Source: Oscillospiraceae bacterium
GTDB taxonomy: Bacteria > Bacillota > Clostridia > Oscillospirales > Acutalibacteraceae
Assembly (NCBI GenBank): GCA_015065685.1
Contig: SVPU01000001.1
Coordinates: 1 to 64,000, forward strand
DNA: 64,000 nt
Direction: 5' to 3'
The notes under the pieces are model-generated. The model was not told the DNA's origin and searched no databases. It saw only the letters and a list, made by a program, of their open reading frames with translations. A program made the translations under genes and the position numbers. This document shows positions 36,191-46,498 of the stretch, in pieces. How positions within the stretch are numbered: the first letter of the stretch is position 1; every line of letters starts with the position of its first letter.

Positions 36191-38812
36191 TTACAAGTTC
36201 GAATTTTTGTCATCCTCAAGGTTGATTTTAAAACCGCCCACGAAACCGTTTTCAAGCTTTGGAATCTCTGTGCGCTCAGGTCTTACAGCGCCTGCGCTAA
36301 GGGTGGTTTCCTCATCCTGCTCAACGCTTTTGCGAATTTCGCGAAGCTCCTGCTTTTTCCATTCCTTAAGCAGTGCATCCCCCTCGGGATAACATTCCTT
36401 ATCGGTGCGCTTGCGGTTGTAAATTGCAAAAATCAAAATATAAAGCAAGAATAAAGCTGCACCAACAACCGTGATTTTAGCACCATCTATAAGACCGGGT
36501 GTCATATAATTAAATCTTATGTCGCTGATTCCCTCGGGCACCTTAACTGCCATGAATCCAACATTCACTTTTTCAATTTCGGTTTCCTTTCCGTTAACCG
36601 TGGCACGCCAACCTTTGTCATAGGGGATTGAGAAAAACACAAGAGATTCTTTATCGCGCGAAACGGTTGCCGAAAAACCGTTGTTATCAAACTCAAACTC
36701 CATTGCAGAGGTTTCTGCAAGTCGTGCACAGTCAAATTTCATATCCTCATCGGTCATCGAAAGCGAAGGCTCAAATGGGGAATCCACGCTATAATCAAGG
36801 TCTTGCGCATTCTCGAACATATAGCCGTATTTTTTTATCTGCTCATCGGTTAGCAAAATAGCCTTGAGCATCATTTGAGCACGGCTCTTTTCGGTATATT
36901 CATCACAAAAATCATAGCTCATATAATAATCGTATGAAAAACCGTATGGCACATAGTTTTTGTTTTCATAAACATAATATCCGCCCTCGGTGCGAAGGTA
37001 TTTATAGCCCGACATTTCGGTCTCGCGCGTGGCTTCATCAACAAAGCTCTTGCCTTCTGTTCTGTCAAGCAGATATTTAACCGAAAGCAGCGGTCTTATA
37101 GCAAAGAGGCTTGTATCCGGTCTGCTTGCAACCGAGCGTTCCATACCTATATAATCATAAAATTCCATAACAGATGCAGGAACAATCGAGTGGAATGCGT
37201 TTATTCCCGAGTAGCCCAAAAACATTGCGGTGTTGTCAACGCCGTCATAAACATCAATTCTAAATTCCTCATCATCGCCGAGCTTTACCTCGCCCTCAAT
37301 CAGTTGGTCAATCATAACCTCTTTAATTTCATAAGAATGTGAACGTCCGCTTGCAATAAAGAAGTTGGCATAAAGAATAGTTATAATGCAAACGAGAGCG
37401 GTTGCGGTTTTAAAGAATTTCTTTTTGTTTTTGTTAACAATTCGAAGTAAAAGACCTAAAACAATAAGGCTTATGATTGCTATCAAGCAGGTTATCCAGA
37501 AGCGGCAGAAATACATAAAGAATTCATCTTCATTGTTGCCTCTTGTGAAAAGTCCGAAAAGCAATTCATCTTCGCTTGATTTCTGTGGGAATAGGCCAAT
37601 CACTAAGGACACGGCAATGGTAATTCCCAAAACCCATTTATAACCGAACGACCAGTTAACCTTGCTGTCCTCACAGAGAACAACCGTGGCAAGACACATC
37701 ATAAGAATAGGCATATAAAACCATCTTGCGTAATAGGCTGTATTGAAGGCGTAGAAGGCGCTGTTGAGAATCGGCACCATCGACATAAAAACACAAATTC
37801 CGATAAGCCTTTTGAGCCAATGTCCCTTGCGGTTTTTAAAGAAGGTGAAAACTCCAACCGTGCTGAAAAGAGGCAACCAGCCGCCAAGTGAAGACCACTT
37901 AACATTAGCGCCTGGGAAGAAAACAGGGCGCGCAGGGATATCGGGCGGGAAAAAGAAGCATTGCAGAACATTTGCATAAATCTGCTCCTTGCCATACATA
38001 ATGGCGCTCCAACCGAGCAGGGTGCTCGAAACGCGCGAATTGTCGGTTATAGCAAGAATAGCGGGAAGCAGCAGAATTGCCGCAAGCAAGAGTCCCAAAA
38101 CCGCCTCGAAAATAATCACGCAAAAACGCGAAAACTTCGGTTTTATTGCGCCCGAGAATAATCTCACAAAGAAATAAATAACTGTGAAAACAACCATTCC
38201 GAAAAAGAAGAAATAGTTGGAAATCGCACAAAGTGCTACGGTAAGCGCAAACACAAAACGGCGGTTCTCGGTTATCAGCAATTCGAACGAGAGAAGTAAT
38301 AACGGAAAGAAGATAATCGCTTCGTGGAAATGGTTGAAGAAAATGTTATAAATCGAAAAGCCCGAAAAAGCATAAAGAATTCCGCCAAGGCGTGCGGCAT
38401 CGGGGGTTCTTGTGAAGCGGCGGATAAAAGCATAGCCCGCGATTGCGGCCAAGCCGAACTTTAAAATAAAGAGCGGGCCCATAAGATAGGGTATAACATT
38501 GTTGGGGAAGGGAATGGTCAGCCAGAAAAACGGACTGCCCAAAAGATAGAAGCTGTAAGACCCGATAAAGTTAGCGCCAAGGTCGGTGGTGGTGCTCCAA
38601 AAAATGTTGCCCTCGCGAATTGCCTCATGGCATTGCTGATAAAAGGGAATCTGCTGAACATTAAAATCACCGTAAAAGGTGAAATAACCCTCACTCATCA
38701 GCATATAAGGCACAAAAAACGCCGCCGATACAAATAACGCTATCAAAAAGGTTGAAAAATACATTTCTTTCCGCGGTTTTAAAACTGCCGCTTTTGAAAC
38801 CGAAAACTTCAT
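36191..38812 (-). CDS. YfhO family membrane protein
   Basis: Large polytopic membrane protein of the YfhO family (GT-C-like fold); a Bacillus homologue is linked to glycosylation of lipoteichoic acid, so a glycosyltransferase role at the outer membrane face is inferred. The 873 residues have about 13 membrane segments in the first 480 residues, a conserved first external loop (EGYFTFYGDFNVQQIPFYQQ), an extracytoplasmic domain (about 500-790) and one more helix. The end is cytosolic and acidic. AAGGAG fits ATG 38812; the earlier ATG at 38839 has none. Confidence 0.9.
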   Translation of the reverse strand: MKFSVSKAAVLKPRKEMYFSTFLIALFVSAAFFVPYMLMSEGYFTFYGDFNVQQIPFYQQCHEAIREGNIFWSTTTDLGANFIGSYSFYLLGSPFFWLTIPFPNNVIPYLMGPLFILKFGLAAIAGYAFIRRFTRTPDAARLGGILYAFSGFSIYNIFFNHFHEAIIFFPLLLLSFELLITENRRFVFALTVALCAISNYFFFFGMVVFTVIYFFVRLFSGAIKPKFSRFCVIIFEAVLGLLLAAILLLPAILAITDNSRVSSTLLGWSAIMYGKEQIYANVLQCFFFPPDIPARPVFFPGANVKWSSLGGWLPLFSTVGVFTFFKNRKGHWLKRLIGICVFMSMVPILNSAFYAFNTAYYARWFYMPILMMCLATVVLCEDSKVNWSFGYKWVLGITIAVSLVIGLFPQKSSEDELLFGLFTRGNNEDEFFMYFCRFWITCLIAIISLIVLGLLLRIVNKNKKKFFKTATALVCIITILYANFFIASGRSHSYEIKEVMIDQLIEGEVKLGDDEEFRIDVYDGVDNTAMFLGYSGINAFHSIVPASVMEFYDYIGMERSVASRPDTSLFAIRPLLSVKYLLDRTEGKSFVDEATRETEMSGYKYLRTEGGYYVYENKNYVPYGFSYDYYMSYDFCDEYTEKSRAQMMLKAILLTDEQIKKYGYMFENAQDLDYSVDSPFEPSLSMTDEDMKFDCARLAETSAMEFEFDNNGFSATVSRDKESLVFFSIPYDKGWRATVNGKETEIEKVNVGFMAVKVPEGISDIRFNYMTPGLIDGAKITVVGAALFLLYILIFAIYNRKRTDKECYPEGDALLKEWKKQELREIRKSVEQDEETTLSAGAVRPERTEIPKLENGFVGGFKINLEDDKNSNL

Positions 38813-38965
38813 TTTCTTCTCCTTAATATTAAAAATCAAAACTTATGTAACAATAATCATTATAACCTCATTATACCAACAAGTAAGACAATATTCAATA
38901 AATGATGAAAAAATTCTAAAGAATAATTTCAAATTTTTTAAAAATAAAAAAATACAAAATAACTC

Positions 38966-38994
38966 TTGCAATTTGACAAAGGGTTTGCTATAAT
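38966..38994 (+). promoter_or_regulatory. Promoter of secreted-protein gene 1
   Basis: TTGCAA at 38966-38971 and TATAAT at 38989-38994 with 17-base spacing. The following bases (GAGTCATAGG.AGAAG) match those after the promoter of the paralogue at 43815. Confidence 0.75.
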
Positions 38995-39000
38995 TACTGT

Positions 39001-39090
39001 GAGTCATAGGAAGAAGTGTGTTTTTTTGAGTTTTATCCCTAAGCTTTTAAAACTATGACACTTATCAATTTTAGGCCTAAAGGCCAGTTA
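39001..39090 (+). promoter_or_regulatory. Structured 5' leader of secreted-protein gene 1
   Basis: GTCATAG (39003-39009) pairs with CTATGAC (39053-39059); a second hairpin GGCC-TAAA-GGCC lies at 39074-39085 just before the SD. Both elements recur, with sequence changes that preserve pairing, in the leader of the paralogue (43852-43936). It does not match a riboswitch I know. Confidence 0.5.
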
Positions 39091-39101
39091 GGAGAATTTT
39101 T

Positions 39102-41426
39102 ATGAAAAAGTTTTTCAAAAAATCTCTCGCTATCTGCTTAATGGCAGCCCTCGTGCTTAGTGCAATTATGGGCGCTATGGTAGTAAGCGCAGAGGGTGTT
39201 GTAGCAACTAAAGGAACTTTAACAGGTTCACTTCAGTTTAAGTATAACACACCAATTAATTTCGAAGAAGTTGCAGGTGCAACAGCTTACGGTGCAGAAG
39301 TTTACCGCACAGACATGGGTGCAAGTTCTGCAGTTGACGTTGAGTTTGATTCTATTGATACCGCAGTTGTTGGTATTTCTAACATCTCTCTCAACAACAT
39401 CGATAAGAATTTCACATTCAAACCTTATGCAGTTGTATCAGGCGCTAAAGTTTACGCAGAAACTTTCACATCATCTTATGCCGAGTGGCTTATTATGAAC
39501 AAGAACGGTGAAAGAGCAAATGCGGAAATCAACAATATCCTTGATACTGCCGCAACTGTTTTGGGCAAACAGCTTTATTACAATCACCAACCAAACTTAG
39601 AAGCTGCTCCCACAGTTGATGGCAAATGGGTTGCTGCAAACGCAGGCACTGCTGATGTTAAGGGTAGCTTTAACACTGCTGAAGGCAAAAACGCTTTACA
39701 GGTCGGTCTTGGTGTTGAATATCCTCAAGCACCTAACTATTTCCCTGCAGGTGATTTTGAAAACTTCACAAGCAACGGTAATATCACTGTAGAAACAAAT
39801 CCCAACACGGCTTCAAATGCTTGGAAACTTCCTGCTAACAAATGGGTAGGAACAGGCACACCTATCACAGTTAAAGCAAACACACAATACAAAATCGAGT
39901 TAAAAGCTTGGTTAACCGGTAATATATATTTCCGTATGAGTTATAATGCAGAACCCAGCTCAAATGAGTATTCGGGCAGTGCGACCTACTCAACGGGTGG
40001 TATTCACTATAACGCATTCAACGGCGCAACAGGTTACCAAGAACTTACTGTTACATTCACAACAGGTTCTTCAACAGAACTTTACATGAGTGCTTATCAA
40101 TTGGCTGGCGGCACATACATTGATGATATCACCGTTAGAGAAGCTGGAGCTGAGTTTGTTGAGCCCGCGCTTAACAACGGTTTTGATAGCAATGCATTAT
40201 ATTATGAATGGATTGGTCAGGGCAAAAATTTCACCGGTGTAGTAGGTACTTATGACGGTGGTAAAACTGCTTACGGCAGAAATCCCATCGATAACAGTAT
40301 CACATGGGCTTGGTTATCAGGCAACGATATTTCTAACGGTACAAAATTCAACATTGAAGCTAACACATATTACACTTTCAGTGCTGATATTTATGTTCCG
40401 CAAGGAAAAACAATAGGCTTTGCTATTCATAATGGCGACGCTTATAATAATATTGACAATGATTCATTGGTTACCAGCAGATATTATGAATCAATCGACA
40501 ACGGCAGTTGGAGAAGCATTTCTTGGATCTTCTATTCAGGTGAACATGAAGGTCAATATTGGTTAACTATTACCAATGGCGGAAACTTCACAGGCACAGC
40601 TGTTAACTCAATGGATAACCGTGTTCGTTATGACAGTGTTAAGATTATGCCTGTTTTAGTTAGCGCAGATGTTTACAAGCCCGCTTCAACAGAGGCGGAC
40701 GCTACCGTTATGTTCGGCAGTAAAGACACACTTGCTGTTTCAATCAGCAACATCTCATTTGCCAACCTTGCAAAACAATATAAGGTTGTTCCTTATGTTG
40801 CAAATGAAAATGCTGAATTAGTTGCAGGCGAAGAAGTGGTTGCTTCTTATGCTGATTTCTTAGCACACGCTCTTAACAACGGTAATGACGGCCAGAAAGC
40901 TATCGCTTATGCAATCGTTAAGGCTTACAAAGCAGCTTACGGTGTAGACCTTGTTACTATTCAGGCTCCCGTAAACCTTATTGTTAACGGTTCTTTCGAA
41001 GAGGGAATTACCGGTTGGAAAACAGGTAAAACTTGGGAAGCAGACAACTATGTTGACTGGCATGTAGTTGAAGGCGAAGAAGCAACAGATGGCACACATT
41101 ACATCGAAGCTTGTGCTAGCAATACAGCAAAATTCTGGCAGTGGGTTGAACTTGAGTCCAACACAAATTATAAACTTTCTGTAGATGTTTATTGCGATGA
41201 TTCGGGTTGGGATCAGGTAAGACTTGAGCTCGGAAACGAAAACCGCGGTGTTGAACCTGATGGCGGAACAGCAATCGGTAACCAGCCCGGTACAGACGGT
41301 CAATGGACCACATTTACCTATAGCTTCAATTCAGGCAGCAACACATGGGCTGGTATTCGTATGACTGTTTCGGCTTGTGGCGAAGTACCCAGTAAGTACG
41401 ACAACTTCAAGCTTATCGCTCAATAA
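39102..41426 (+). CDS. Secreted multi-domain beta-sandwich protein, paralogue 1
   Basis: 774 residues with a classical signal peptide (MKKFFKKSLAICLMAALVLS, cleavage near VVSAEG). The body has two related modules, one at about 34-160 (FKPYAVVSGAKVYAETFTSS) and one at about 520-625 (YKVVPYVANENAELVAGEEV). Between them lie two jelly-roll-like regions resembling carbohydrate-binding modules, and the C-terminus is a CBM4/9-like domain (NLIVNGSFEEGITGWKTG.. ending DNFKLIAQ). There is no catalytic motif, LPXTG or S-layer anchor. RBS AGGAG is present. A 39-residue peptide gene follows after 41 bases, and a kinase-PqqD-peptidase operon further on. The central 1285 bases are identical to paralogue 2. 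Family not recognised; a secreted or surface glycan-binding role is inferred. Confidence 0.8.
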   Translation: MKKFFKKSLAICLMAALVLSAIMGAMVVSAEGVVATKGTLTGSLQFKYNTPINFEEVAGATAYGAEVYRTDMGASSAVDVEFDSIDTAVVGISNISLNNIDKNFTFKPYAVVSGAKVYAETFTSSYAEWLIMNKNGERANAEINNILDTAATVLGKQLYYNHQPNLEAAPTVDGKWVAANAGTADVKGSFNTAEGKNALQVGLGVEYPQAPNYFPAGDFENFTSNGNITVETNPNTASNAWKLPANKWVGTGTPITVKANTQYKIELKAWLTGNIYFRMSYNAEPSSNEYSGSATYSTGGIHYNAFNGATGYQELTVTFTTGSSTELYMSAYQLAGGTYIDDITVREAGAEFVEPALNNGFDSNALYYEWIGQGKNFTGVVGTYDGGKTAYGRNPIDNSITWAWLSGNDISNGTKFNIEANTYYTFSADIYVPQGKTIGFAIHNGDAYNNIDNDSLVTSRYYESIDNGSWRSISWIFYSGEHEGQYWLTITNGGNFTGTAVNSMDNRVRYDSVKIMPVLVSADVYKPASTEADATVMFGSKDTLAVSISNISFANLAKQYKVVPYVANENAELVAGEEVVASYADFLAHALNNGNDGQKAIAYAIVKAYKAAYGVDLVTIQAPVNLIVNGSFEEGITGWKTGKTWEADNYVDWHVVEGEEATDGTHYIEACASNTAKFWQWVELESNTNYKLSVDVYCDDSGWDQVRLELGNENRGVEPDGGTAIGNQPGTDGQWTTFTYSFNSGSNTWAGIRMTVSACGEVPSKYDNFKLIAQ
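39672..40956 (+). repeat. 1285-bp perfect repeat, copy 1
   Basis: By line-by-line reading, identical to 44529-45813 (offset 4857). Sequence on both sides is homologous but clearly diverged, so the boundaries are sharp. Confidence 0.85.
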
Positions 41427-41467
41427 TCCTCTGATTATTGAAGTAAATATAAGGAGTGATTATAATT

Positions 41468-41587
41468 ATGAAATTTGAAATGCCTAGAATCGACATTTTA
41501 TCATTCAATATGAATGAAAATATCGCTGCAGACTTGGGCGATAAAGAAGAAATCGGCGGAGCAATTTTCGATTCCACCATTTTCTAA
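41468..41587 (+). CDS. 39-residue peptide, RiPP-precursor-like, copy 1
   Basis: Short gene with AAGGAGTG ten bases before ATG 41468. The peptide starts MKFEMPRIDILSFNMNENIA, continues acidic (DLGDKEEIGG) and ends AIFDSTIF. Copy 2 at 46323 has the same length and pattern (MKFEMPKFDMYSFDMNENIA, a GG near residue 30, ending GSSIF). A conserved N-terminal half with a variable acidic middle and a short C-terminal part after GG is the layout of a leader-core precursor. The partners 0.5-2 kb away (kinase, PqqD, peptidase) suit a modified peptide. It ends at a terminator. Processing and modification are inferred. Confidence 0.7.
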   Translation: MKFEMPRIDILSFNMNENIAADLGDKEEIGGAIFDSTIF

Positions 41588-41606
41588 TAAAAGTTAAAAG
41601 CATTAA

Positions 41607-41639
41607 GCGGCAACGGATTTCCCGTTGCCGCGTTTTTTT
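41607..41639 (+). terminator. Terminator after peptide 1
   Basis: GCGGCAACGG and CCGTTGCCGC form a 10-bp stem followed by GTTTTTTT. A near-identical hairpin follows peptide 2. Confidence 0.92.
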
Positions 41640-41647
41640 GTTTATAA

Positions 41648-41678
41648 CCGTAGGGGCGATTCTTAATCGCCCTTACGG
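41648..41678. repeat. REP-like palindrome
   Basis: CCGTAGGGGCGATT and AATCGCCCTTACGG form an inverted repeat; related GGGCGATT/AATCGCCC units recur at 41895-41914 and 43612-43634. Confidence 0.75.
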
Positions 41679-41680
41679 GT

Positions 41681-41819
41681 TGCCTCCCTCTGACGAGGGA
41701 GGTGGATTTTGCAAAGCAAAAGACGGAGGGAGAGAATAACTAAGGATTATATCGAAATTTACTATTTTTTCTCCCTCAGTTTCGCTAACGCTCAACAGCT
41801 CCCTCGTCAGAGGGAGCCT
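41681..41819. repeat. MITE-like element with 20-bp terminal inverted repeats
   Basis: About 139 bp. The ends, GCCTCCCTCTGACGAGGGAG and the reverse complement of CTCCCTCGTCAGAGGGAGCC, agree in 19 of 20 positions. No ORF inside. The sequence type (CTCCCTC..GTCAGAGGGAG with GCAAAGCAAAAGACGGAGGG) is a common clostridial intergenic repeat. This and its neighbours fill the 480-base gap before the kinase gene. Confidence 0.75.
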
Positions 41820-41845
41820 TTATAGAGTGAACAATGTCGATTGTG

Positions 41846-41920
41846 CACGGGCGGTCGAGGACCGCACCTACGATACACAGTGTAAACTGATAAAGGGCGA
41901 TTGCGAATCGCCCCTACAGG
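41846..41920. repeat. REP-like unit, copy A, left of the tailoring operon
   Basis: GCGGTCGAGGACCGC, then CAGTGTAAACTGATAAAGGG, then CGATTGCGAATCG and CCCCTACA. A closely related unit with the same orientation lies at 43590-43642, right of the operon. Confidence 0.7.
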
Positions 41921-41961
41921 TTGGGCCTTCGGTTTGCAAACCACAATCGTTATAAATGTTC

Positions 41962-41990
41962 TTGCTTTTTATAAAATGCTTTGATATAAT
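41962..41990 (+). promoter_or_regulatory. Promoter of the kinase-PqqD-peptidase operon
   Basis: TTGCTT at 41962-41967 and TATAAT at 41985-41990 with 17-base spacing. Confidence 0.7.
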
Positions 41991-42070
41991 AACAGTGTAT
42001 ATGTGTATATATAATCAAATTTTTCAAAAATAGCACCCCGATTTTAAAATAAAACCGAAAAGGAACGCTT

Positions 42071-42775
42071 ATGAAATATAAAATTGCTGATTTGATTGTT
42101 GAAATGGAGCCTGATGAAAAAACTCGCATTCAGGCGGAGAAATATCTGACCGACCAAAACGCAAAGGTCGATATTTATGCCGTGGCTCAAAGCAGAAAGG
42201 AATATGAAGAGCGCAAATATAACGGCTCTTTCGAATCGTTCAGATATATAACCCTCGGTTCTTCTTTTTACCGCCATCTGCTTGATTTCGGCGGTTGTAT
42301 GCTTCATTCTTCCGCGGTTGTGGTTGATGGCAAGGCTTATCTTTTCTCGGCCCCTTGCGGCACAGGGAAATCCACCCACACGCAGTTTTATCTTGAACTT
42401 TTCGGAAGCGACAGAGCGTTTATTATTAATGATGATAAACCTGCAATAAAACGCGGGGAAGACGGTAAGTTTTATGTTCACGGCACCCCTTGGAGCGGTA
42501 AGGATGATTTAAGCGCTGATACATCGGCTTTGCTGCAGGGTATCTGCTTCTTGCAACGCGATAAGGAAAACTGGATAAGAAGAATTGACCCTCAGGATGC
42601 GTTCATCAGAATGTATCACCAGTGCATTCGCAATCTCGATAAAGAATATATGGTTAAGCAACTCAATTTGTTCGAAGAAATAACCAAGAAAGTTCCGATT
42701 TTTGAAATGGGTTGCAATCCCACGGTTGATGCCGCAAAGGTGTCTTTTGGGGAAATGTCAAAGGCAGAAATTTAA
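42071..42775 (+). CDS. HPr-kinase/PEPCK-fold protein kinase-like protein
   Basis: 234 residues with the P-loop APCGTGKSTHTQ (about residues 96-107), FIINDDKPAIKR and HGTPWSGKDDLS, the pattern of HprK-related and PEP-carboxykinase-fold kinases rather than of HPr kinase proper. The N-terminal 80 residues are a separate domain. Relatives occur beside PqqD-like proteins in peptide-modification clusters; the lasso-peptide kinase PadeK phosphorylates the C-terminal Ser of its peptide. Here pqqD-like and peptidase genes follow in one operon, and both nearby peptides end in S/T-I-F. Function as a peptide kinase is inference. AAAGGAA precedes the ATG. Confidence 0.82.
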   Translation: MKYKIADLIVEMEPDEKTRIQAEKYLTDQNAKVDIYAVAQSRKEYEERKYNGSFESFRYITLGSSFYRHLLDFGGCMLHSSAVVVDGKAYLFSAPCGTGKSTHTQFYLELFGSDRAFIINDDKPAIKRGEDGKFYVHGTPWSGKDDLSADTSALLQGICFLQRDKENWIRRIDPQDAFIRMYHQCIRNLDKEYMVKQLNLFEEITKKVPIFEMGCNPTVDAAKVSFGEMSKAEI

Positions 42776-42790
42776 GGGAGATTTCAGAAA

Positions 42791-43057
42791 ATGAAAAGAA
42801 ATGAAGAGTTTGTTTTAAGAGAATTGGCAGATAAAAACGTTTTAATTCCGTTTGGCAAAAAGGCGCTTGATTTCAACGGCGTTATAACCATTAACGATAC
42901 CGCTAAATTTTTGTGGGAGAGAAGTGAAGACGAAATCGTTCCCGAAAAATTGGCAGATGCCTTGGTTGAGGAATTCGGCATTGATTTGAATACCGCAAAC
43001 GAGGCGGTTAAGGTGTTTATTGAGCAGTTGAGGGAAGCCGGTTGCATCAATGAATGA
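42791..43057 (+). CDS. PqqD-family peptide-binding protein
   Basis: 88 residues of the PqqD fold, the RiPP recognition element that presents leader peptides to tailoring enzymes. It shows LIPFGKKALDFNGVITINDT, AKFLWERSEDE and a winged-helix C-terminal half ending EQLREAGCINE. AGGGAGA lies before the ATG. It starts 15 bases after the kinase gene and overlaps the peptidase gene by eight bases. The two 39-residue peptides are candidate ligands, which is inference. Confidence 0.85.
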   Translation: MKRNEEFVLRELADKNVLIPFGKKALDFNGVITINDTAKFLWERSEDEIVPEKLADALVEEFGIDLNTANEAVKVFIEQLREAGCINE

Positions 43058-43508
43058 GCGAATTGACCTGCGCGAAATGGAACCGCTGATTGAAGAAATG
43101 CTCGAAAAAAGCGGCAATGTTACGCTGACTGTTGCGGGAATGAGTATGCAACCGATGATTTATCATCGCCGCGATACCTTCACTCTCGAAAGACCCGAAT
43201 TTCCTTTGAAGAAATATGATTTGCCGCTTTATAAGCGCGAGGACGGAAGCTTTATTCTTCACCGAATAATAAAGGTGCATAAGGATGGCAGTTATACCTG
43301 CCGAGGAGATAACCAAAGGCAAAAGGAATATCCCGTTTTAGAAAATCAGATTATCGGCGTGGTGGAAAAATTTACCCGAAACGGCAAGGAAATCGTGGTT
43401 GGGCGTTCGTTTGGATATTTTGTTTACACAAGAATGTGGGGTTTTTTGCGCCATTTTAAAAAGTATTATAAATATGTAGCGCCAATAATGAGAAAATTTA
43501 AAAGGTAA
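43050..43508 (+). CDS. S26B-type (SipW-like) signal peptidase family protein
   Basis: 152 residues of the S24/S26 serine peptidase fold. The nucleophile region is TVAGMSMQPMIYHRRDT. The second catalytic region reads SFILHRIIKVHKDGSYTCRG with His where bacterial type I signal peptidases have Lys, then GDNQRQKEYPV. Ser-His with GDN is the pattern of the SipW/ER-type S26B group. There is no N-terminal membrane helix; the Tyr/Phe/Arg-rich C-terminus (YKYVAPIMRKFKR) could bind the membrane. Cleavage of the 39-residue peptides or of the secreted proteins is possible but unproven. Translationally coupled to the PqqD gene. Confidence 0.8.
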   Translation: MNERIDLREMEPLIEEMLEKSGNVTLTVAGMSMQPMIYHRRDTFTLERPEFPLKKYDLPLYKREDGSFILHRIIKVHKDGSYTCRGDNQRQKEYPVLENQIIGVVEKFTRNGKEIVVGRSFGYFVYTRMWGFLRHFKKYYKYVAPIMRKFKR

Positions 43509-43515
43509 AAATTAT

Positions 43516-43544
43516 ACGGGCGGTCTTTGACCGCCCGTTGTTTT
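43516..43544 (+). terminator. Terminator of the kinase-PqqD-peptidase operon
   Basis: ACGGGCGGTC and GACCGCCCGT form a perfect 10-bp stem with a TTT loop, then TGTTTT. Confidence 0.88.
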
Positions 43545-43589
43545 ATGCAATGTGAATTGTACAATTCCGTAGGGGAGACCCTCGGTATC

Positions 43590-43642
43590 CCGTGCACAGT
43601 GTAAATTGATAACAGGCGATTACGAATCGCCCCTACGATGTA
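43590..43642. repeat. REP-like unit, copy B, right of the tailoring operon
   Basis: CGTGCACAGTGTAAATTGAT followed by GGCGATTACGAATCGCCCC, closely matching 41866-41918. A shorter variant (CAATGTGGATTGATAACGGG) continues to 43670. These repeats and the promoter below occupy the 444 bases before paralogue 2; no gene is seen there. Confidence 0.7.
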
Positions 43643-43814
43643 CAATGTGGATTGATAACGGGCGGTTATCCGAAAACACAACATAAATGAATAATTTTGA
43701 ATCGGGCACAATATATTGAAAACAGGACATACCCGCACCTCGTTTTTCGGCAAAGTGCACAAATTGGCTTGGAAAAATTTTAATAATTCACCTAAAAAAA
43801 TACAAAAATTATTC

Positions 43815-43843
43815 TTGAAATTTGGAATGCGGTTTGTTATAAT
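43815..43843 (+). promoter_or_regulatory. Promoter of secreted-protein gene 2
   Basis: TTGAAA at 43815-43820 and TATAAT at 43838-43843, 17-base spacing; followed by GAGTCATAGGGAGAAG as in gene 1. Confidence 0.75.
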
Positions 43844-43851
43844 GATTATGA

Positions 43852-43936
43852 GTCATAGGGAGAAGTATGTTTTTTACGATGTCCCATTATACAACTTAAT
43901 TCTATGGCACAAAAAAATATTTTGGCTAAACGCCAA
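43852..43936 (+). promoter_or_regulatory. Structured 5' leader of secreted-protein gene 2
   Basis: GTCATAG (43852-43858) pairs with CTATGGC (43902-43908, one G-T), and TTGGC-TAAA-CGCCAA forms a hairpin at 43922-43936 before the SD. Same layout as in gene 1. Confidence 0.5.
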
Positions 43937-43952
43937 GAGAGGAGAAAACTTT

Positions 43953-46283
43953 ATGAAAAAGCTTTTCAAAAAGTCTCTCGCTGTCTGCTTAATGGCAGCT
44001 CTCGTGCTTAGTGCAATGATGGGTGCTATGGTAGTTAGCGCAGAGGGTGTTGTAGCTGCAAAAGGTGCTTTAACAGGTAACATTGCATTCGGTTACAATA
44101 CCAAAATCAATTTTGAGCCGGTTGACGGCGCAACAGCTTACGGTGCTGAAGTTTACCGTACAGACAAGGGTGAAGGAAAAGCTGTTGATGTTGTTTTTGA
44201 TTCAATCAACAAAGCAGTTGTTGGTATTTCCAACATCTCACTCAACAACATTAATAAGACATTCACCTTCAAACCCTACGCAGTTGTAGAAGAAGTTAAA
44301 GTTTATGCAGAAACTTTCACTTCATCTTATGCTGAGTGGCTTGTTTCAAGAAAAGATGGCGAAAAATTCAACGCTGAAGTTAACAACATTCTTGATACAT
44401 ATGCTGCTGTAACAGGTGAGACTGTTTACGAAGGTCAAGAAATTGACTTAGAAGCAGCTCCCGCAATTGGTGAAGAAGACAAATGGGTAGCTACAGAAGC
44501 AGGTAATGCTGAAGTTAAGGGTAGTTTCAACACTGCTGAAGGCAAAAACGCTTTACAGGTCGGTCTTGGTGTTGAATATCCTCAAGCACCTAACTATTTC
44601 CCTGCAGGTGATTTTGAAAACTTCACAAGCAACGGTAATATCACTGTAGAAACAAATCCCAACACGGCTTCAAATGCTTGGAAACTTCCTGCTAACAAAT
44701 GGGTAGGAACAGGCACACCTATCACAGTTAAAGCAAACACACAATACAAAATCGAGTTAAAAGCTTGGTTAACCGGTAATATATATTTCCGTATGAGTTA
44801 TAATGCAGAACCCAGCTCAAATGAGTATTCGGGCAGTGCGACCTACTCAACGGGTGGTATTCACTATAACGCATTCAACGGCGCAACAGGTTACCAAGAA
44901 CTTACTGTTACATTCACAACAGGTTCTTCAACAGAACTTTACATGAGTGCTTATCAATTGGCTGGCGGCACATACATTGATGATATCACCGTTAGAGAAG
45001 CTGGAGCTGAGTTTGTTGAGCCCGCGCTTAACAACGGTTTTGATAGCAATGCATTATATTATGAATGGATTGGTCAGGGCAAAAATTTCACCGGTGTAGT
45101 AGGTACTTATGACGGTGGTAAAACTGCTTACGGCAGAAATCCCATCGATAACAGTATCACATGGGCTTGGTTATCAGGCAACGATATTTCTAACGGTACA
45201 AAATTCAACATTGAAGCTAACACATATTACACTTTCAGTGCTGATATTTATGTTCCGCAAGGAAAAACAATAGGCTTTGCTATTCATAATGGCGACGCTT
45301 ATAATAATATTGACAATGATTCATTGGTTACCAGCAGATATTATGAATCAATCGACAACGGCAGTTGGAGAAGCATTTCTTGGATCTTCTATTCAGGTGA
45401 ACATGAAGGTCAATATTGGTTAACTATTACCAATGGCGGAAACTTCACAGGCACAGCTGTTAACTCAATGGATAACCGTGTTCGTTATGACAGTGTTAAG
45501 ATTATGCCTGTTTTAGTTAGCGCAGATGTTTACAAGCCCGCTTCAACAGAGGCGGACGCTACCGTTATGTTCGGCAGTAAAGACACACTTGCTGTTTCAA
45601 TCAGCAACATCTCATTTGCCAACCTTGCAAAACAATATAAGGTTGTTCCTTATGTTGCAAATGAAAATGCTGAATTAGTTGCAGGCGAAGAAGTGGTTGC
45701 TTCTTATGCTGATTTCTTAGCACACGCTCTTAACAACGGTAATGACGGCCAGAAAGCTATCGCTTATGCAATCGTTAAGGCTTACAAAGCAGCTTACGGT
45801 GTAGACCTTGTTAAAGTTCAAGGCCCTGTAAACCTTATTGTTAACGGTTCTTTCGAAGAGGGAATTACTGGTTGGAAAACAGGTAAAACTTGGGAAGCAG
45901 ACAACTATGTTGACTGGCAAGTAGTTGAAGGCGAAGAAGCAACAGATGGCACACATTACATCGAAGCTTGTGCTAGCAATACAGCAAAATTCTGGCAGTG
46001 GGTTGAGCTTGAAGCTAATACCGATTATAAATTCTCTGTTGACGTTTACTGCGGTGACCCCGGTTGGGATCAGGTAAGACTTGAGCTCGGAACTGAAAAT
46101 CGCGGCGTTGAACCTGATGGAGGTACAGCAATCGGTAACCAGCCCGGTACAGACGGTCAGTGGACCACATTCACTTATAGCTTCAACTCAGGCAGCAACA
46201 CATGGGCAGGTTTCCGTATGACAGTTTCGGCTTGTGGTGAAAAGCCGGCTAAATACGATAACTTCAAGCTTATCGCACAATAA
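43953..46283 (+). CDS. Secreted multi-domain beta-sandwich protein, paralogue 2
   Basis: 776 residues, same architecture as paralogue 1: signal peptide MKKLFKKSLAVCLMAALVLS with cleavage near VVSAEG, N-terminal module, two jelly-roll-like regions, the duplicated module, and the C-terminal CBM4/9-like domain ending DNFKLIAQ. The N-terminal module is diverged (for example NINKTFTFKPYAVVEEVKV), whereas the protein segment starting SFNTAEGKNALQVGLG through YGVDLV is identical. The frame is open upstream to 43716, but ATG 43953 has GAGAGGAG and begins the signal peptide. A second 39-residue peptide gene follows. Absence of a cell-wall anchor suggests release, or binding via its own modules. Confidence 0.8.
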   Translation: MKKLFKKSLAVCLMAALVLSAMMGAMVVSAEGVVAAKGALTGNIAFGYNTKINFEPVDGATAYGAEVYRTDKGEGKAVDVVFDSINKAVVGISNISLNNINKTFTFKPYAVVEEVKVYAETFTSSYAEWLVSRKDGEKFNAEVNNILDTYAAVTGETVYEGQEIDLEAAPAIGEEDKWVATEAGNAEVKGSFNTAEGKNALQVGLGVEYPQAPNYFPAGDFENFTSNGNITVETNPNTASNAWKLPANKWVGTGTPITVKANTQYKIELKAWLTGNIYFRMSYNAEPSSNEYSGSATYSTGGIHYNAFNGATGYQELTVTFTTGSSTELYMSAYQLAGGTYIDDITVREAGAEFVEPALNNGFDSNALYYEWIGQGKNFTGVVGTYDGGKTAYGRNPIDNSITWAWLSGNDISNGTKFNIEANTYYTFSADIYVPQGKTIGFAIHNGDAYNNIDNDSLVTSRYYESIDNGSWRSISWIFYSGEHEGQYWLTITNGGNFTGTAVNSMDNRVRYDSVKIMPVLVSADVYKPASTEADATVMFGSKDTLAVSISNISFANLAKQYKVVPYVANENAELVAGEEVVASYADFLAHALNNGNDGQKAIAYAIVKAYKAAYGVDLVKVQGPVNLIVNGSFEEGITGWKTGKTWEADNYVDWQVVEGEEATDGTHYIEACASNTAKFWQWVELEANTDYKFSVDVYCGDPGWDQVRLELGTENRGVEPDGGTAIGNQPGTDGQWTTFTYSFNSGSNTWAGFRMTVSACGEKPAKYDNFKLIAQ
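44529..45813 (+). repeat. 1285-bp perfect repeat, copy 2
   Basis: Identical to 39672-40956. Beyond 45813 the copies differ at many mostly synonymous sites. Confidence 0.85.
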
Positions 46284-46322
46284 TCCTCTGGATTTGATAT
46301 TATATAAGGAGTGATTATGATT

Positions 46323-46442
46323 ATGAAATTTGAAATGCCTAAATTTGATATGTATTCATTCGACATGAATGAAAACATTGCTTTAATGGCAGAAGATGAA
46401 GAAAACATTGGTGGCGGACTCACCGGTTCATCAATCTTCTAA
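46323..46442 (+). CDS. 39-residue peptide, RiPP-precursor-like, copy 2
   Basis: Counterpart of the peptide at 41468, same length: MKFEMPKFDMYSFDMNENIA, acidic middle (LMAEDEENIGGG), end LTGSSIF. AAGGAGTG lies upstream; an in-frame ATG at 46317 could add two residues, but copy 1 has no equivalent and supports 46323. It lies 39 bases after secreted protein 2 and ends before a terminator. Conserved positions between copies are concentrated in the first 20 residues and at GG and S/T-I-F, suggesting leader and tail constraints. Confidence 0.7.
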   Translation: MKFEMPKFDMYSFDMNENIALMAEDEENIGGGLTGSSIF

Positions 46443-46463
46443 TTAAAGATTTAAACTAATAGA

Positions 46464-46498
46464 ATTGGCAACGGATTTTCCGTTGCCAATTTTTCTTT
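46464..46498 (+). terminator. Terminator after peptide 2
   Basis: ATTGGCAACGG and CCGTTGCCAAT form an 11-bp stem around a short ATTTT loop, followed by TTTTTC. Confidence 0.92.

Follow-up and report, generated by a model that had tools for sequence, protein, structure and literature searches.

Analysis of a 64,000-nucleotide stretch of DNA from an Oscillospiraceae bacterium (hereafter the window; contig SVPU01000001.1, designated G000:C7:1-64000 in our labelling, in which G000 is the source assembly of 1.48 Mb in 24 contigs, 91% complete) reveals what is likely a system of ribosomally synthesized and post-translationally modified peptides (RiPPs) that resembles the linear polyphosphorylated peptides (LPPs), with precursors encoded singly behind secreted proteins. 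Its centre is a forward-strand operon of three genes (42071-43508), which code for an HprK/PEPCK-fold, LppK-like kinase (42071-42775, 234 amino acids, aa), an LppB-like RiPP recognition element (RRE) of the PqqD type (42791-43057, 88 aa) and an LppS-like S26B leader peptidase (43050-43508, 152 aa). The operon is flanked by two pairs of secreted-protein and peptide genes, each pair followed by a hairpin. As judged from the comparisons presented below, the three enzymes probably trim and phosphorylate about eight short peptides.

LPPs are the products of the lppAKBSDN genes of Paenibacillus alginolyticus (Popov et al. 2026, PMC13381572). According to that paper, their clusters encode an HprK-like kinase, an RRE, a SipW-like peptidase, a nucleotidyltransferase and an MsbA-like exporter; the precursor is cleaved after T-1 in an RRE-dependent manner and multiple phosphates are placed on core Ser3, the catalytic residues of LppS are S29/H68/D93, and the role of the peptides is stated to be unknown. 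The window system shares with them the HprK-like kinase, the discrete PqqD-type RRE, a SipW-like Ser-His-Asp leader peptidase (scoring below the NCBIfam cut-off), a short precursor with an aromatic-x-x-P leader and an operon without a cyclase, and some of its relatives also have the ABC gene and the nucleotidyltransferase. It differs from them in its several precursors of 37-39 aa, which are dispersed and nearly all located behind a secreted protein, in the position of an Ala or Thr at +17 from the leader aromatic residue (+15 in LPP), and in Ala72 of the RRE, which takes the place of Asp70 of LppB. An earlier reading of the window from its nucleotides without database searches (the sequence-only reading) had regarded the system as undescribed. 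This holds for the dispersed, secreted-protein-coupled form, of which we found no description in the literature searched (subscription literature lay outside the search), but the core chemistry was published in May 2026 (PMC13381572).

The active-site residues of the kinase and the peptidase are intact. In the kinase, His79, Lys100, Asp121 and Asp122 are invariant among 30 homologues; the His-Lys-Asp-Asp motif was taken from PMC9266682. The HprK/PEPCK fold of this protein was settled by a fold search, with HprK itself absent from the 50 matches listed; a sequence search of the PDB returned nothing relevant, and its top match, a beta clamp at 0.003, was judged spurious. The PqqD protein matches Pfam family PF05402 with 47.7 bits (cut-off 23.4), and a profile of 18 RRE rows matched the LppB chain 9x8z_B at 2.2e-5. 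The peptidase scores below the cut-offs of the NCBIfam models sigpep_I_arch (27.4 of 51.85 bits) and SipW (22.4 of 190 bits); in an alignment of 17 rows its His71 and Asp87 are invariant and Ser32 is nearly so (one row starts after it). Thus, the Ser-His S24/S26 peptidase of the sequence-only reading retains its two residues, but Asp87 is conserved too, which makes a triad. The protein has no transmembrane-like segment by hydropathy and is predicted to be soluble.

The two precursors of the window (peptide 1, 41468-41587, with AAGGAG 5' of its start, and peptide 2, 46323-46442; both on the forward strand and 39 aa long) are 59% identical. We propose to split peptide 1 into a leader up to FEMPRIDILSFNMNENIA and the core ADLGDKEEIGGAIFDSTIF, and peptide 2 into a leader up to FEMPKFDMYSFDMNENIA and the core LMAEDEENIGGGLTGSSIF. 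A DNA pattern taken from the peptide start, run on the own genome with up to 3 mismatches allowed, gave 10 matches vs 2 for a reversed-pattern control. Seven of the 10 are members of the family and an eighth member came from a scan of open reading frames (ORFs), so that the genome holds eight dispersed FxxP precursors of 37-39 aa, in which M1, K2, F3, E4, P6, F13, I19, A20 and S36 are invariant and most of which end in DST[I/V]F. Their profile returns these eight members, all with E values of 1.5e-17 or lower, which is circular by construction; a broader profile of 19 rows, four of them own FxxP peptides or the peptide of a second operon on contig C5 (see below), returns at E<=1 only the eight and the C5 peptide. 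In all five peptide pairs tested out of 28 possible, dN is lower than dS (0.05-0.29 and 0.38-1.48, respectively), which argues for translation under constraint and against the possibility, raised by the sequence-only reading as one that would refute it, that the peptides are never translated.

The link between these peptides and the operon is provided by co-variation of the leader with the RRE. As reported in PMC13381572, N33 of LppB holds the leader kinked at its Pro, against which F74 packs, and D70 hydrogen-bonds the leader Tyr; in a profile alignment counted by hand these residues fall into columns 35, 76 and 72, respectively. Each of 18 aligned RRE rows has N35 and F76, though not every RRE examined later does; the window RRE keeps both, and carries Ala72 where the RREs of Tyr leaders carry Asp or Glu. 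Column 72 is acidic in all 14 loci with a Tyr leader, whereas the five with a Phe leader have A, A, A, Y and S there, all of them non-acidic (Fisher 8.6e-5 over 19 loci). This count leaves out L078, L108 and L111, which have a peptide and no RRE in the sequence analysed for each, the radical-SAM-type loci L106 and L107, and RREs without a known leader, and it includes L091-L093 once, through L162. L106 and L107, checked later, both combine a Tyr leader with Asp at column 72, and two genomes, G000 and G139, have both leader types side by side in two operons. The co-variation is limited by L116, whose RRE lies on the other strand apart from the kinase, and by several RREs without a known leader that are also non-acidic at column 72. 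It ties the FxxP peptides to the window operon, and together with the homology to LPP clusters it lends good support to the suggestion of the sequence-only reading that the peptides would be bound by PqqD, phosphorylated and cleaved.

The second operon of the genome (L014 9034-12510, G000:C5) is diverged and encodes a secreted protein, a peptide of 33 aa whose leader carries YQKP, a kinase, an RRE, a lipoprotein, a peptidase and a nucleotidyltransferase. Identity to the corresponding window proteins is 37-39% for the kinase, the RRE and the peptidase, and the precursor ends 6 bp 5' of the kinase gene. Of 97 kinase loci classified (the window and C5 among them), 48 carry both an RRE and a peptidase gene close by, 13 carry one of these two, and 36 carry neither. 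Within the 48 three-gene loci a nucleotidyltransferase is found in 16 and an ABC gene in 20 (by HMM; the ABC model may catch unrelated ATPases). The window operon has no exporter, as the sequence-only reading had said, and no nucleotidyltransferase; since both genes do occur in related operons, their absence here is a local trait. For loci with at least 1.5 kb upstream, leader-type peptides accompany 13 of 41 three-gene loci (two of the 13 being the seeds, window and C5) vs three of 36 solo-kinase loci (Fisher 0.013), with one of the latter three, L094, being doubtful. By a rough hydropathy test, 11 of the 13 peptides sit behind a protein with a signal-like N-terminus.

The sequence-only reading had proposed a search for co-occurrence of peptide and operon. 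At the level of the genus this is uninformative, because the base rates of the enzymes are too high: of 41 genomes, 33 have the kinase, 39 PqqD and 35 S26, near-universal figures against which the narrow peptide profile has matches in 3. Across the family, the FxxP profile finds 5 of 150 genomes at E<=0.01 with a strong match only in the own genome, and this test too is uninformative, because the peptides diverge too fast.

Kinase homologues without RRE or peptidase are common (36 of the 97 loci), and PqqD-S26 pairs without a visible peptide are frequent in the genus. Both facts would suit an explanation in which kinase, RRE and peptidase have substrates other than these peptides, and the small ORFs either encode small proteins in their own right or take part in the regulation of the secreted proteins. 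We consider this quite unlikely, given the [Y/F]xxP leader motif with its residue-level co-variation with the RRE and the C5 precursor immediately 5' of its kinase. Solo kinase homologues recur in particular neighbourhoods of the genus (L164-L166, L169, L171, L173-L175, L179) and possibly have a different role. Six PqqD-S26 pairs of the same genus (L246, L251, L253, L254, L256, L260) lie, by eye, directly 3' of a YfhO-like membrane protein, with no kinase and no visible peptide; a YfhO gene (36191-38839) also adjoins the window system. In the radical-SAM-type loci (L106 2483-12187, L107 114-6764), a secreted protein and a Cys-containing peptide with a YxKP leader are followed, in this order, by a kinase, a radical SAM protein and PqqD. 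The operons of L084, L095 and L135 adjoin, by eye, polysaccharide genes of the Wzz/BY-kinase type, a neighbourhood also reported for the LPPs of Bacilli.

The enzymes also resemble those of other known systems. With the clusters of paeninodin and pseudomycoidin (PadeK, PsmK, PsmN) the window system shares an HprK-like kinase with the His-Lys-Asp-Asp motif, a PqqD-like B1 protein, a Ser near the C-terminus as likely acceptor and, in the C5 operon only, a nucleotidyltransferase; it differs in having an S26B peptidase instead of B2, FxxP or YxxP instead of WxxP, and no cyclase in the operon. Neither a macrolactam cyclase nor a B2 cysteine peptidase was found by Pfam among the ten proteins of the region (the rest of the genome was not searched). 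These kinase, RRE and (C5) nucleotidyltransferase families, and the likeness of the RRE to lasso B1 proteins, could be taken to mean that the operon is the remnant of a phosphorylated lasso-peptide cluster which lost its cyclase and B2 along with its product. Such an origin is very improbable in view of the intact active sites, the purifying selection on the peptides, the two distinct operons with matching leaders in one genome, and the S26B peptidase in place of B2, as in LPP. The SynChlorMet proteins ScmC and ScmD are matched weakly (kinase TIGR04249, 31.1 bits; PqqD TIGR04248, 14.5 bits), far below the cut-offs of 125 and 100 bits, and the window operon has no radical SAM gene. The SipW-type signal peptidase I shares the S26B family and the Ser-His-Asp residues, whereas the window peptidase, at the low SipW score given above, lacks a transmembrane-like segment and belongs to a RiPP-type operon.

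Seven of the eight FxxP peptides are encoded directly 3' of a large secreted-protein gene, and all seven partners share a module of ~120 aa. In the window these are secreted protein 1 (39102-41426, 774 aa, forward strand), which has a signal-like N-terminus by eye and two copies of the module, and secreted protein 2 (43953-46283, 776 aa, forward strand). Their genes are identical over 1285 bp (39672-40956 = 44529-45813), which indicates a recent duplication or conversion. Terminator-like hairpins on the forward strand follow peptide 1 (41607-41631, with a T-run), the peptidase gene (43516-43538) and peptide 2 (46461-46493); the hairpin scan gave 16 sites vs 6.6 (sd 2.8) in shuffles. All genes and hairpins were found by our ORF and hairpin scans in the order and at the positions given by the sequence-only reading. 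Its description of the two secreted proteins as CBM-like was not borne out: no CBM family of Pfam matches them (the best matches, HpiC1-like at 0.011 and Endotoxin_C at 0.14, are below cut-off). A paralogue on contig C23 with the same module carries a clear CBM_4_9 domain (3e-15). Three partners scanned against Pfam carry different domains, namely BspA-type LRR, endonuclease I and CBM_4_9. The module search returned 12 genes, one of them truncated by a contig end, and of the other 11, seven precede a peptide. A common promoter motif was seen only at the two window copies of the secreted-protein genes.

The pairing itself, claimed by the sequence-only reading, is real and recurs in other genera with different partner proteins. 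One could suppose that the peptides are free secreted RiPPs, signals or bacteriocins, for which the secreted-protein genes merely lend promoters without a common function. The words secreted, surface protein and Clostridi- are absent from the main text of PMC13381572, so no such partner is reported there; the peptide on contig C22 stands without a secreted partner near a LytTR-type regulator (by eye); and the partners differ between genomes, a search for the module of the own genome having given no match in the C5 partner or in the 11 tested from other genomes. This alternative is nevertheless doubtful, though of real weight, since the pairing is found again in several genera, where the partners differ, and beside two operons of the radical-SAM type, and since in genome G139 a peptide core and a protein tail are the same. 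By eye, the gene 5' of the C22 peptide is a putative cardiolipin synthase.

In G139, STEDLDKGWSDWWTPEF forms the end of the precursor and NSEDPDEGWSDWWTPEY that of the adjoining secreted protein (score 86; shuffles 27.7, sd 5.2); another contig encodes two small lipoproteins whose last residues are GWSSWYEPEY and GWSSWWEPEY. The tail GWSxW[WY]xPE[YF] is thus carried by lipoproteins, a secreted protein and a precursor (G139:C16, L225 6223-6513 and L216 1249-1563; L101 5986-7202). Among 24 comparisons of a peptide core with its own partner, one stands out. A general rule by which the lipoprotein tail equals the peptide core was rejected. In a permutation test on seven loci, of which L074 and the pair named G139 come from one genome, the sum over matching loci took rank 218 among 5040 permutations; leaving out the G139 tail gave rank 218 among 720, so that only this tail stands. 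In the own genome, the tail [DEGN]-S/T-S/T-[IV]-F has 17 pattern matches vs 8 in the reversed control; six are known peptides, and the seven inspected among the 11 others yielded nothing beyond chance ORFs, 20 and 27 aa long. The sole other exact DSTVF, on contig C12, is not the end of any ORF, and its surroundings are RNase P RNA-like in our reading. In 14 stretches of the own genome, none of the 702 ORFs with a length of 60 aa or more has such a tail. It is conceivable, if unlikely, that the core of the RiPP reproduces, in soluble and phosphorylated form, a docking tail at the C-terminus of surface proteins, in which case lipoproteins would anchor the tail, secreted proteins would bear or bind it, and the peptide would cap, prime or compete in surface assembly. 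Lipoproteins of low complexity whose short tails are aromatic (GWGDLM, GWGPLLG, DWGDFEVVG, EWDDA, WSGWY) are also encoded directly 5' of the kinase in L109 (2206-2595), L111 (1164-1634), L116 (5699-5935), L123 (5813-5992) and L103 (2956-3396).

For the LPP-like system we propose the following course. The RRE would bind the F-x-x-P leader of each precursor, as the structure-mapped residues suggest; the kinase would phosphorylate a Ser of the core; and the cytosolic S26B peptidase would cut after the leader (...N-I-A), releasing an acidic phosphopeptide of 17-19 aa. The cleavage site is proposed because LppA is cut at T-1 and a near-constant A/T stands two positions further here. Taken together, we regard these three steps as highly probable on the homology and co-variation described. 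The most likely acceptor would be the Ser that is invariant close to the C-terminus, mostly in the context D-S-T-[I/V]-F, by comparison with PadeK acting on the C-terminal Ser of paeninodin, an assignment we hold with about even confidence. The peptide would then leave through a transporter encoded elsewhere (no search for one was made in this genome), and outside it may work with its secreted protein, e.g. in cell-surface assembly or attachment, which the pairing makes plausible if just short of an even bet; the sequence-only reading had suggested that the peptides may modify, anchor or regulate the secreted proteins. One modification operon would serve several precursors in trans.

A number of observations weigh against this interpretation. 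The LPP leader consensus YxxPxVLxHQxIxFETxxS is not matched, with FxxP in the window or YxxP in C5 and no HQ or FET, and the LppN-type NTP transferase and MsbA-like exporter (LppD) are missing from the window operon, a nucleotidyltransferase being present in that of C5; because of these two differences the system is, by its sequences, an LPP-like variant and not a member. The loci of the co-variation are related: the Tyr loci L080 and L125 have the same peptide and are probably from one genome; for L162 and L243, two of the five Phe rows, the peptide is encoded elsewhere in the genome and so is linked to the RRE at genome level only; and on the RRE tree, which contains no LppB, the Phe label needs three changes, of which the well-supported branches force only one, the backbone being weak. 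Of the 41 three-gene loci, no more than 13 have a detected leader-type peptide beside them, and one of the 13, L180, looks like a spore protein and is best set aside. In genome G150, FxxP peptides occur together with a PqqD-S26 pair that has no kinase beside it. Four of the 11 complete module genes have no peptide behind them, the C22 peptide (L019 7033-7143, G000:C22) is an orphan, and the core Ser, present in all 25 listed peptides, is not rare by chance.

The Phe/Tyr switch of the leader with its matching RRE residue is a candidate one-residue specificity rule, which parallels the published Tyr/Trp insulation. The coupling of precursors to individual secreted proteins in several genera gives such peptides a concrete partner and a hint of their purpose. 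If true, a small enzyme set with dispersed, secreted-protein-linked substrates would constitute a genome-wide modification system and not a classical natural-product cluster.

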